Assembly: GCA_012727935.1 (NCBI GenBank) | Contig: JAAYGA010000327.1 | Coordinates: 1 to 43,275 of the forward strand | From: Pseudomonadaceae bacterium | GTDB taxonomy: Bacteria; Pseudomonadota; Gammaproteobacteria; Pseudomonadales; Halomonadaceae | DNA length: 43,275 nt | Direction of reading: 5' to 3' | Shown: in pieces, positions 7,917 through 37,875 of the stretch | Numbering within the stretch: the first letter of the stretch is position 1 | How the letters are laid out: each line of letters begins with the position of its first letter | Notes under the pieces: model-generated | The model's database searches: none | What the model was told of the DNA's origin: nothing | Seen by the model: only the letters and a program-made list of their open reading frames with translations | Program-made: the position numbers and the translations under genes

Positions 7917-9518
7917 TTAAGTATCGAAGTGATCTAGCTGCTTATTAAGCTGGCCAATCTCTGCTTGTATTAACTGGCTAGCACTTACCACCTGACTGGC
8001 TGCTTGGCTGTTTTCATCAGCAATACCAGCAATATGAACCAGCCGCTGATCTATATCTTGTGCAACCTGATGCTGTTCTTCTGCCGCTGCTGCTATTTGC
8101 GTATTCATACTTCTAATCATATCTACCGCACCCACTATAGTCTCTAAGGCTTCAGTCGCTTCTTCAACTTGTTTAACATTGGTTGCTGCTTCTTCTGAAT
8201 AGGTAACCATCGCTTTTGAAGCTTTACCTGCTTCTGTTTGTAAATTAGCGACGATGCTTTCTATTTCACCAATTGAATCACGGGTACGGCTGGCAAGATT
8301 GCGTACTTCATCTGCAACCACAGCAAAGCCTCGGCCCGCTTCACCTGCACGAGCAGCTTCTATGGCAGCATTTAATGCCAAGAGGTTAGTTTGTTCAGCA
8401 ATAGCCGTTATCACTTCTAATACTTTGCCTGCTGAATCCGTTTCTGCGCGTAAAGTTTGTAAACCTTTAGCGCCTTCTTTTAAGCTATTAGATAAACGCT
8501 TTAGCTGACCTGCCGTTTGCACCACTAGTTTTTGTCCTGCCCTAGCACGCTCATCGGCAGAGTCTGCAGCATCGGCAGCATTAGCGGCATGATTAGCCAC
8601 TTCAGCAACCGTTGCCGTCATTTCATTCATTGCTGTAGCAACCTGATCTAAATCTTCATGCTGCTGACGAACACCATCACCCGTTGCTTGCGCTGCTTTA
8701 ACAGCATCCTTTACGTGTTGACTGGTGGCTTGGCCTGTTTTTTTAGTTTGTACCATTAAACGTAGAACTTCTTCTTGCATACGGTTATAAGCAGTAAACA
8801 TCTGCCCAATTTCATCTTCTTTATATTTAACCTTTAAGCGTGTTTTAAAGTCGCCCTCACCCACCCGTCGCATTCCCACTAAAAGCACTTGAATATTATC
8901 CATTAACTGGCGCATACCAAAAATACGCCCTAAAACTGATAACAGTAAAATACTGATCACACTAATAAAAGCTAACCACACCTGAAGTTTTTGGCTAGAT
9001 TCAGCCTTGCGAGTCATCAGAACCACGGCTGTGTTCATTTCTTTTAGTAGAAGAACCGATTGGCTTTGAAGTTGCTGAATGCTTGATTGATCTTGCCTAA
9101 CCAAGGTTTGCTCTAGCTTTAACTTCATTTGCTGCCAAAGCTTATCGACGTTTTGCATTTGTTGCTGAATTTCTAAGTCATCAAAAGCAGTAATATTGCG
9201 TTCACGATTACCAACCAATAAATCTTTATGAGCCAGCTCAAAGCTATTCATTGTTGCATCTAGCGTTGTTTTTTCTGTAACACCTTGCACAATTAAAAGG
9301 GCTTCTTTAGTCATTTTCTGGCTTAACATCCGCTGTGCGCCAGCTACATTAATTGTTTCAGGTGAAACAGACATGCTCATATAAAGAGCCACTGAAGCAG
9401 TAGCAGCTAAAACAAACATTAGAACGTAAGAAAAAAGAAACTGCTTATCTAACGTTTTCAAACCAAAAGCTCTTAAAATTGCAGTTAAAAGCGTGGCAAT
9501 TAGGTTGCTCATAAACAA
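7917..9518 (-). CDS. Methyl-accepting chemotaxis protein with PilJ/NIT-like N-terminal sensor domain
   Basis: Signalling hairpin [40 protein letters not shown]-terminal [20 protein letters not shown] typical of PilJ-type domains. Confidence 0.93.
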
Positions 9519-34830: not shown

Positions 34831-34858
34831 TTGTTAAGTTAAGGAACCTTGATATACA
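34831..34858 (+). promoter_or_regulatory. Candidate sigma70 promoter upstream of the first ODP gene
   Basis: TTGTTA (34831..34836)-N16-TATACA (34853..34858). Confidence 0.4.
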
Positions 34859-34862
34859 TTAA
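34849..34862 (+). promoter_or_regulatory. FNR/ANR-like box upstream of the first ODP gene
   Basis: TTGAT-ATAC-ATTAA; one mismatch to the FNR/ANR consensus TTGAT-N4-ATCAA. Confidence 0.45.
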
Positions 34863-34883: not shown

Positions 34884-34909
34884 GCAGATGGAGTTAGCAG
34901 ATGGAGTTA
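34884..34909 (+). repeat. Perfect 13-bp tandem duplication spanning the SD/start region
   Basis: GCAGATGGAGTTA twice, head to tail (34884..34896 and 34897..34909). Confidence 0.95.
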
Positions 34910-35680
34910 AAGATGGTAGAAAGCAGTAAAGTCTTATATGAGGATGATGACCACCAGTACGTTTGGTTTGGTTGGGAAGATCCTGATACAGAAGAAACCT
35001 TGGTGCAATCGAATCAAGTGTTAGTTGTTAATCAGAATCAGGGTTATTTGTTTGACCCAGGTGGCGCGTTTATTTTTGCCGAAGTCGCAGCAGAAGTTAA
35101 CAAGTACCTCCCCTTAGATCAAATTCGTTACCTTATCGCCACCCACCAAGACCCTGATGTACTTTCATCTGTCACCTTGTGGTTAAAAGCAACCAATGCG
35201 CGTTTGCTTGTATCACGCTTATGGGTGCGCTTTGTTTCCCACTTTGGCTTTAGTGATAACAGTCGACTCATTGCTATTGAAGACCGCGGTAAGATGATTA
35301 AGCTGCCAGCTGGCGGTGAAATTGTAATGTTACCTGCCCACTTTTTACACAGTGAAGGTAACTTTAGCTTCTATGATAGCCGTTCTAAAATTCTTTTTTC
35401 AGGTGATATAGGTGCTGCAGTTTTCCCTAAAGGTGAACGTTACCTAATGGTGGAAGATTGGGAAAAACACCTTACTTACACTGAAGGCTTCCATAAACGT
35501 TATATGGGTAATAATGCTGCTTTGCGTAAGTGGGTTAGTATGATTCGCCAATACCCTGTTGAAATGATTGTGCCTCAGCACGGTGCAATTATAGGCAAAG
35601 AACACATACCTAAATTCTTAGATTGGCTAGAAAACTTACAATGTGGAACTGATTTATTAGATGAATTCTACGGCTTTTAA
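34901..35680 (+). CDS. MBL-fold ODP-type (oxygen-binding di-iron) protein, copy 1
   Basis: ATHQDPDV, PAHFLHSEGNF, FSGDIGA, PQHGA metal-ligand motifs of ODP/flavodiiron-like MBL proteins; no flavodoxin domain. Start could be 34901 or 34913. Confidence 0.85.
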   Translation: MELKMVESSKVLYEDDDHQYVWFGWEDPDTEETLVQSNQVLVVNQNQGYLFDPGGAFIFAEVAAEVNKYLPLDQIRYLIATHQDPDVLSSVTLWLKATNARLLVSRLWVRFVSHFGFSDNSRLIAIEDRGKMIKLPAGGEIVMLPAHFLHSEGNFSFYDSRSKILFSGDIGAAVFPKGERYLMVEDWEKHLTYTEGFHKRYMGNNAALRKWVSMIRQYPVEMIVPQHGAIIGKEHIPKFLDWLENLQCGTDLLDEFYGF

Positions 35681-35758
35681 GCTGACTCAGTTTTACAGGC
35701 ATTTGTTCTAGTGTAAGCAAAATAAAAACAAGGAATAAACCAATAGGAGCCTGTCAAA

Positions 35759-36550
35759 ATGAATGCAAACTTAGATGACAGCTGTTTGCTGTATGAGGAC
35801 GATGAACACCAATTTGTTTGGTTTGGCTGGGAAGAAGAAGAGGGTTCTAATTCTTTTGTACAAACCAACCAATGTTTAATTATTAATGGCGGGCAGGGTT
35901 ATTTGTTTGACCCAGGCGGAAGTTATGTCTTCCACCATGTATTAGAACAAGTCACGCGTTACTTACACCCTCGTCAACTCAACACCATGATAGCAACCCA
36001 TCAAGACCCTGATGTTTGCTCTTCAGCGCCCTACTGGATGAAAGCCACCGACGCTAAGCTGCTAATTTCAGGTTTATGGTTACATTTTGTCTCTCACTTT
36101 GGCTTAGATGAGCCTGAACGGGTTGTTCCCATTCCAGATAAAGGTGCTAAATTGCGCCTGCCAAGCGGCGACCATCTGCTTATTTTACCTGCTCACTTTT
36201 TACACAGTGAAGGTAACTTTAGTATTTTTGATGAGCGTTCAGGCATTTTGTTTACCGGTGACATTGGTGCTTCTATTTACCCTGAAGGTGGGCGTGAAAT
36301 TTTTGTAAAAGACTTTGAAGCACATAAAGCTTTTATGACTCCTTTCCATAAACGTTATATGCACTCCAATGCAGTTTGTAGGCACTGGGTAGCAAGAATT
36401 AGAGCCTTGCCAAAAAAAGTAACCATGATAGTGCCCCAGCACGGAGCAATGTTTCAGGGCGATCAAGTGGAAGCTTTTTTAGCTTGGTTTGAAGAACTGC
36501 AGTGTGGCGGTGATTATTTAAAAGCCATTTACGCTGACCAGCCTTTTTAG
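35759..36550 (+). CDS. MBL-fold ODP-type (oxygen-binding di-iron) protein, copy 2
   Basis: Clear paralogue of the preceding CDS: YEDDEHQFVWFGWE, ATHQDPDV, PAHFLHSEGNF, FTGDIGA, HKRYM, PQHGA, LQCGGD. Confidence 0.85.
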   Translation: MNANLDDSCLLYEDDEHQFVWFGWEEEEGSNSFVQTNQCLIINGGQGYLFDPGGSYVFHHVLEQVTRYLHPRQLNTMIATHQDPDVCSSAPYWMKATDAKLLISGLWLHFVSHFGLDEPERVVPIPDKGAKLRLPSGDHLLILPAHFLHSEGNFSIFDERSGILFTGDIGASIYPEGGREIFVKDFEAHKAFMTPFHKRYMHSNAVCRHWVARIRALPKKVTMIVPQHGAMFQGDQVEAFLAWFEELQCGGDYLKAIYADQPF

Positions 36551-36577
36551 ATAACAGACTGATTGCAAGGATACGCT

Positions 36578-37786
36578 ATGTTTTTGCGTGATTTTGAACT
36601 GTCAAGAATAACGCCTGAACACCTTAAAGTGAGTCAGCCGGTGCCTTGGTCTATCTATGACGAGTTTGGCAAGCTGTTAATGGCTAAGGGCTCTATTTTG
36701 CGCTCCGACAGGCAAAAAGAAATTCTTACGCGAGTTGGCCTGTTTGCAAATGAAATAGAACCTGATCCTGAAAGCCTGTTACCTCAGCCTATTAAGTTTC
36801 ACCGTAAAGTTAACCCCTTTGCAGAATTTGACGAACTTTGCTTAAAGCTTGAGGAAGTATTTAAGCTAATTGAATCAGAAACGCCCAATGGCAGCGTTAT
36901 TAAAAAACGGGTTTACGATATAGCCACCCACATTCAAGGACTCGTTAGCTATGATAGCGACGCCTTATTAGGTGCGGTGCATTTGGCTGATCAGTTTCCT
37001 TACCATGTACACCACCCCATGCAAATAGCAGTATTAACAGAGCTAATTCTTGAGCGTTTACAAGTAGAGCAGGTGGTTCGCTTGTCGGTATTGGCAGCTG
37101 CCCTAACGGGTAACCTAGCCATGAACCCTTACCAACAACGCTTGCATCAGCAGAAAACACCTTTAAATGATCAGCAGCGTGAAGTAATTAATCGCCACCC
37201 TTTGCAAAGTATGCAAAAGCTAGAAGCCGCTGGGGTAGACGATGCATTATGGTTAGAACTAGTGGCGCAACACCATGAAAAATTAGATGGCACAGGTTAC
37301 CCACGAAACCTTGTAGGCGACGCTATTCGTCGTGAAGCAAGGATTTTAGCCCTAGCCGATGTTTATACCGCAATGGTTACCCACCGGCCTTACCGTAACC
37401 CCATTAAACACAAAGACTCTTTGCGTGATATTTTCACTCAACGCGGCAGCAAGTTTGATTCCAAACTTACTCTAGTGTTCTTGAATGAGTTGGGGGTTTA
37501 CCCACCCGGTGTTTATGTAAGGTTAAATAATGGTGAACTGGCCGTTGTAATAGGCCGAACACCTAACCCACGCTCACCTTTAGTGGCAAGCATTAAAAAA
37601 ACTGATGGCGAGTTCTTTTTATCGCCTAGGCGACGCAATACAGAAAATGAACAATTTGCTATTCGTAGTGCTTGCAATGTAAGTGAACGAATAAAAGTAA
37701 ACCCTGCTACGCTTTGGGGCATTCAAGCCATTAGAGTTAATAGTGTGAATACTGCCGATTTATCGTCTATTGCTGATTTAATCTAG
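36578..37786 (+). CDS. Degenerate HD-GYP domain protein
   Basis: GYP region HHEKLDGTGYP...ARILALADVYTAMVTHRPYR present; the HD of HDIGK is replaced (AALTGNLAM). Start at ATG 36578 with AAGGA upstream; ORF track used TTG 36563. Confidence 0.85.
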   Translation: MFLRDFELSRITPEHLKVSQPVPWSIYDEFGKLLMAKGSILRSDRQKEILTRVGLFANEIEPDPESLLPQPIKFHRKVNPFAEFDELCLKLEEVFKLIESETPNGSVIKKRVYDIATHIQGLVSYDSDALLGAVHLADQFPYHVHHPMQIAVLTELILERLQVEQVVRLSVLAAALTGNLAMNPYQQRLHQQKTPLNDQQREVINRHPLQSMQKLEAAGVDDALWLELVAQHHEKLDGTGYPRNLVGDAIRREARILALADVYTAMVTHRPYRNPIKHKDSLRDIFTQRGSKFDSKLTLVFLNELGVYPPGVYVRLNNGELAVVIGRTPNPRSPLVASIKKTDGEFFLSPRRRNTENEQFAIRSACNVSERIKVNPATLWGIQAIRVNSVNTADLSSIADLI

Positions 37787-37830: not shown

Positions 37831-37875
37831 AAAACCATTGAACAGCCCTGCTAACAAGTAGGGCTGCTTGGTTTT
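37831..37875. terminator. Bidirectional terminator between HD-GYP (+) and elbB (-)
   Basis: AAAACCA...CAGCCCT-N10-AGGGCTG...TGGTTTT. Confidence 0.8.

Follow-up and report, generated by a model that had tools for sequence, protein, structure and literature searches.

What could two adjacent, paralogous diiron proteins of the ODP family and an HD-GYP-like protein that lacks its HD dyad be doing together, encoded one after the other on the plus strand? The question is raised by ODP1, ODP2 and the HD-GYP-like gene (hereafter the trio) in the window, the whole stretch of 43,275 nucleotides that was analysed (contig JAAYGA010000327.1). The window is Marinospirillum DNA; ODP1 is 95% identical to its counterpart in M. 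insulare, 94% in M. minutulum and 91% in M. celere. Upstream of the trio lie ubiB, hisE, tatA and tatC, and downstream a DJ-1/PfpI-type gene on the minus strand, followed by hemB and ppk (Table 1). The start of the HD-GYP-like gene is most likely ATG 36578, because most orthologues begin there; this codon is preceded by AAGGA, and counted to it the gap after ODP2 is the 27 nt, on the same strand, that the first-pass annotation had given. The stem-loops in the trio region do not outnumber those in shuffled sequence, hence the terminator candidate past the trio is weak.

Table 1. Features of the trio and its flanks, in window positions.
Feature	Position	Strand	Description
FNR/ANR-type box TTGTTTTGTATCAA	34817..34830	+	9/10 against TTGATNNNNATCAA, one mismatch (TTGTT); putative
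-10 hexamer TATACA	34853..34858	+	36 nt from first base of the box; consensus match only; putative
ODP1	34901..35680	+	259 aa; stand-alone ODP-family metallo-beta-lactamase-fold diiron protein
ODP2	35759..36550	+	263 aa; paralogue of ODP1
HD-GYP-like gene without HD dyad	36578..37786	+	402 aa from ATG; alternative start TTG 36563
Terminator-like stem-loop past the trio	37843..37866	+	10-pair stem, 6 G-C pairs; weak

Both ODPs match the Pfam family PF19583 (E 1.4e-74 for ODP1 and 3.1e-71 for ODP2) over the full profile (positions 1-194/194), with 250.6 and 239.7 bits at a cut-off of 27.2. ODP1 is 50.8% identical to the solved oxygen-binding diiron protein 6qrq (E 5.5e-89) and 47.2% to a second solved one (E 1.8e-79); for ODP2 the identities to the same two are 47.2% and 44.7%. 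Both proteins contain the motifs HQDPD, HFLHSEGNF, GDIGA and PQHG, which are identical in PDB 6qrq/6qnm. A Pfam search found just ODP/Lactamase_B domains and neither flavodoxin nor rubredoxin, and both chains end some 30 residues past the domain, where the C-terminal flavodoxin domain of the flavodiiron type is missing. The ligand motifs are intact in every relative inspected. From spacing and homology to flavodiiron proteins, I take the six metal-ligand positions to be H82, D84, D86, H150, D169 and H227, and both proteins are predicted to bind two irons and O2.

The two ODPs share 52-53% identity, and the earlier description of a tandem pair of ODP-type paralogues free of flavodoxin and rubredoxin domains is confirmed; it had also been envisaged that a strong match to a different hydrolase family might overturn the idea, which survived, and the ODP assignment stands. 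A maximum-likelihood tree places ODP1 and ODP2 in separate clades (each 100/99) within a joint clade (100/98). The duplication therefore predates the split of the four genera in which these genes occur, Marinospirillum, Oceanospirillum, Allopseudospirillum and Terasakiispira, the last of which lost ODP2; judged from this tree, the pair is the product of a single old duplication. Tandem ODPs of other lineages (loci L190 and L195) branch elsewhere in the ODP tree, and ODP duplication has thus occurred more than once.

The third gene encodes a protein matching Pfam HD_5 (E 2.5e-23). Its AlphaFold model is of high confidence (pLDDT 90.4), with Bd1817 and DvhD as the best solved matches. The HD-GYP fold is present and the HHE and DGTGYP parts of the HHExxDGxGYP motif are kept, while the HD dyad is replaced by G178 and N179, bearing out the initial designation as a degenerate HD-GYP protein. 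The position of the dyad was fixed by aligning relatives in which it is intact (LTHDLGM; loci L200-L202 and L215), and these ruled out a placement at T-G. In 13/13 ODP-linked orthologues the H position holds G, C or S and the D position always N; the remaining metal-ligand positions, H146, H207, H232, H233 and D261, are kept. The dyad is likewise absent from paralogues as distant as 34% identity in the same genomes. As the relatives with an intact dyad fall outside the family, its loss is derived and fixed. A decayed gene was considered and ruled out, given the invariant N and conservation across the family to about 34% identity. The nearest NCBIfam model is NosR, with a score of 65 at a cut-off of 400, and the protein is therefore not a NosR.

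The HD dyad is essential in characterised HD-GYP enzymes (PMC12570481), and in DvhD, where SQ replaces HD, c-di-GMP is bound and not hydrolysed (PMC13090378). With DvhD numbered according to the residues that this paper names, Y523, L577, K582, Y621, M646, R650 and Y652 correspond to Y142, L196, R201, Y241, M266, R270 and Y272 of the HD-GYP-like protein, so that 7/8 of the c-di-GMP contact positions are kept in 13/13 orthologues, one as K to R; caution is due, as several of the shared pocket residues are common to all HD-GYP proteins. The guanine-reading contact E668 is R289 here. Since the dyad is lost while the DvhD pocket residues are kept, the protein is most likely a c-di-GMP-binding pseudo-enzyme that reads the messenger and does not destroy it. 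The c-di-GMP signalling or binding proposed at the outset would accordingly hold in part: binding, as by a receptor, is favoured, whereas turnover is disfavoured because the loss of the dyad is old and fixed in the family.

Some paralogues of the HD-GYP-like gene have neighbours of their own. In 13/13 genomes from the four genera, a cytochrome c'-type gene (PF01322) lies on the same strand 3' of such a paralogue (loci L085-L091, L122-L126 and L128; about 38-48% identical, dyad lost), with glutathione reductase next in the Marinospirillum loci. In two Marinospirillum genomes, CheV (CheW plus receiver) is encoded after a paralogue of 58-60% identity (L079:2800-3747 and L083:2810-3751).

Conservation of the gene order outside this strain had been set beforehand as a test. 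Six further Marinospirillum genomes preserve the order tatC-ODP1-ODP2-HD-GYP-elbB-hemB-ppk, as does Oceanospirillum, with an additional gene ahead of hemB. In Allopseudospirillum the trio is intact as a block at another location, with no tat genes and followed by a PilJ-type MCP. The order of the trio, being kept across three genera, is therefore not due to chance. In Terasakiispira the HD-GYP gene comes directly after ODP1, and its genome holds no second ODP. Of 201 genomes of the family, 16, belonging to 4/24 genera, have ODP1-type proteins (E up to 1e-30), and the same 16 have members of the HD-GYP family; this count is descriptive, as few independent lineages (four related genera) contribute to it. 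In G003, a 77% complete genome among these 16, there is no more than the end of an ODP at a contig edge and a distant HD-GYP paralogue. In this reduced or incomplete Marinospirillum genome the ODP1 end (L045) lies near hemB, with no HD-GYP gene or elbB between them. Taken together, the adjacency, the move as a block and the pair in Terasakiispira support a working partnership, in which the proteins may be in direct contact.

ODPs as such are more widespread, being found in 74/347 genomes sampled from the order and in 69/387 from the class, and an HD-GYP neighbour was found at 0/58 other gammaproteobacterial ODP loci. The partnership first suggested from one sequence is thus conserved in four spirillum genera, but the pairing of ODP and HD-GYP is not general in Gammaproteobacteria and is here confined to these four related genera. 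At about 11 of the loci examined, the ODP has as neighbour a soluble protein of about 200-225 aa that resembles an MCP signalling hairpin (LSLTAKNARVLAIRAGE...GFKVIT) and matches the MCP structure 2ch7 with E 7e-4; no curated family was matched by these proteins above its cut-off. They stand directly beside single ODPs in L041 (5098-5766), L143, L155, L165, L168, L170 and others. In Treponema denticola the ODP TDE2498 is a sensor coupled genetically to the soluble MCP TDE2496 (Muok 2019, via PMC7666581). The hairpin-like neighbours resemble this soluble MCP, and by analogy they would fit ODPs acting through a signalling partner encoded next to them. No ODP fusion was found, the long frames in high-GC genomes (L173, L267 and L270) being without a second Pfam domain. 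In two gammaproteobacterial MAGs (L053 and L054) the ODP gene is flanked by genes for a PF10023 aminopeptidase and an aldehyde dehydrogenase, in the same order in both.

The region upstream of ODP1 bears on the signal. In a class II FNR promoter the box is centred 41.5 upstream of the transcription start and is accompanied by a -10 element, and the spacing of the putative box and hexamer in Table 1 would fit this type. In 7 Marinospirillum and 6 Oceanospirillum genomes TTGTT-N4-ATCAA stands 5' of ODP1 (P 0.01-0.03 in shuffles made genome by genome), and at the same offset 12 genomes carry a -10-like TATACA, TATATA, GATACA, TTAAAT, TTTAAT or TCTAAT (one shifted by 1 nt). Allopseudospirillum has 9/10 FNR-box matches but not the class II spacing, and no clear FNR box was seen 5' of ODP1 in Terasakiispira. 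FNR itself is encoded above the NCBIfam cut-off in 5/5 genomes tested, and the one FNR sequence inspected shows the cysteine arrangement of an O2-sensing FNR (4Fe-4S cysteines). In the window's own genome, sites of the forms TTGTT-N4-ATCAA and TTGAT-N4-ATCAA lie mostly inside genes; box counts alone therefore prove nothing, and the case rests on the conservation of this one promoter. So qualified, the FNR-type box upstream of ODP1 points to oxygen as the probable signal. A second 9/10 match, at 34849-34862, is better read as the -10 region than as another FNR site. Single-ODP loci elsewhere have FNR-type boxes in 6/37 cases, with 0.8 expected from shuffles (L166, L192 and four others, two of them perfect).

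These observations suggest a mechanism in which low oxygen would act through FNR at the putative class II promoter and switch on the trio. ODP1 and ODP2, as cytosolic diiron proteins, would then change state through binding of, or reaction with, O2 (or Fe(II)/NO), and this state could be relayed to the HD-GYP-like protein through direct contact; the latter would bind c-di-GMP without hydrolysis, so that the output is set by oxygen and c-di-GMP. There is no shortage of c-di-GMP signalling, with 28 GGDEF matches in the window's own genome and GGDEF proteins abundant in these genomes generally. All four genera, spiral-shaped marine bacteria, take their names from helical, polarly flagellated cells or are known to have them, and the output is therefore likely to be motility or attachment, probably as a control of flagella or of attachment. 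That the trio encodes a pair of O2/redox sensors, induced anaerobically, and a c-di-GMP receptor through which they act, with contact, ligand and output as I infer them from sequence, seems to me an evenly balanced proposition. Counting against such a unit are that the HD-GYP paralogue family is also found without ODP neighbours, that Terasakiispira has neither ODP2 nor a clear FNR box, and that independent events are few, the pocket residues are partly those of HD-GYP proteins in general and E668 is changed to R.

Alternatively, the ODPs may feed a chemotaxis array as in Treponema, providing an aerotaxis input, while the HD-GYP-like protein is co-transcribed and adjusts motility separately, with no direct contact. 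Apart from the precedent of TDE2498/TDE2496, this could be argued from the MCP-hairpin-like proteins adjoining single ODPs in other Gammaproteobacteria, from the PilJ-type MCP after the Allopseudospirillum trio (a relative with 49% identity, likewise a PilJ-type MCP, lies at 7917-9518 on the minus strand of the window), and from the CheV that follows one HD-GYP paralogue. However, no MCP stands beside the trio in Marinospirillum or Oceanospirillum, where the neighbours are TatC, ElbB, HemB and Ppk, and both the block move and the exact ODP1/HD-GYP pair of Terasakiispira suggest that the HD-GYP-like protein is the partner; I consider a pure chemotaxis role unlikely. The ODPs could also be FNR-induced enzymes, reducing O2, NO or peroxide or acting hydrolytically, for defence against oxidative or nitrosative stress, with a merely co-regulated HD-GYP-like protein. 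Their MBL-fold diiron core is the same as that of flavodiiron O2/NO reductases, an FNR-type box suits a defence gene, and HD-GYP paralogues have cytochrome c'-type genes beside them; NO can be a ligand of cytochrome c' proteins. Yet the flavin domain, rubredoxin and a reductase partner are all missing from the unit, the solved ODPs, at about 50% identity, carry the name oxygen-binding and that of T. denticola is a sensor, which makes an enzymatic role improbable.

A further possibility concerns the HD-GYP-like protein, which might be catalytically active as a phosphodiesterase, its metal site being unusual, in which case the ODPs would control the breakdown of c-di-GMP. The confident AlphaFold model and the retention of every metal ligand except the dyad speak for this, but the missing dyad is the part that characterised enzymes cannot do without (PMC12570481), DvhD with its SQ does not hydrolyse c-di-GMP (PMC13090378), and the fixed, derived loss in this family, with intact dyads only in relatives outside it, leaves hydrolysis very doubtful.

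If the reading of the trio as an oxygen sensor pair acting through a c-di-GMP receptor is true, MBL-fold non-heme diiron O2 sensing would be tied to c-di-GMP, a connection so far documented for hemerythrin and heme sensors. ODPs as sensors are known mainly from one spirochete chemotaxis case, and the trio would be a second, genetically well-defined output; no paper pairing an ODP or flavodiiron protein with HD-GYP was found in the literature searched. More tentatively, and rather against the balance of likelihood, the trio might be an undescribed two-input switch, in which a heteromeric diiron ODP pair gates a c-di-GMP-binding pseudo-phosphodiesterase and one complex combines oxygen and c-di-GMP; gas- or redox-linked proteins (ODPs, cytochrome c'-type, CheV loci) would then have co-opted the pseudo-HD-GYP family repeatedly. 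The trio gives dyad-less HD-GYP proteins a testable role, in culturable hosts and as a simple three-gene unit, of which ODP1 and HD-GYP in Terasakiispira are a natural minimal version.

Among known systems, TDE2498/TDE2496 shares with the trio a stand-alone ODP coupled genetically to a soluble signalling partner, the solved ODPs being about 47-51% identical to ODP1, but the trio has two ODP paralogues, an HD-GYP-like partner instead of an MCP and a putative FNR-type promoter, and belongs to another phylum. In Bhr-HD-GYP of Ferrovum and Bhr-DGC of V. cholerae (PMC9388753), diiron O2/redox sensing is likewise tied to c-di-GMP; there, a hemerythrin is fused to an active enzyme, whereas the trio has MBL-fold sensors on separate chains and an output protein without the dyad. 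DvhD of Desulfovibrio vulgaris (PMC13090378; PDB 9rbz, 9rc0) also lacks the HD dyad and shares most c-di-GMP contact positions, but it is a receptor located in the membrane, contains dCache and PAS domains and has lost the HH pair, while the HD-GYP-like protein is soluble, keeps HH and has GN in place of SQ. The NosP/NosK/NosR operon of Burkholderia (PMC12570481), like the trio, combines in one operon a separate gas sensor and a degenerate HD-GYP protein; it differs in that its sensor, NosP, does not belong to the diiron proteins, signalling passes through a kinase and a receiver domain, and NosR carries the motif HG-GTP.
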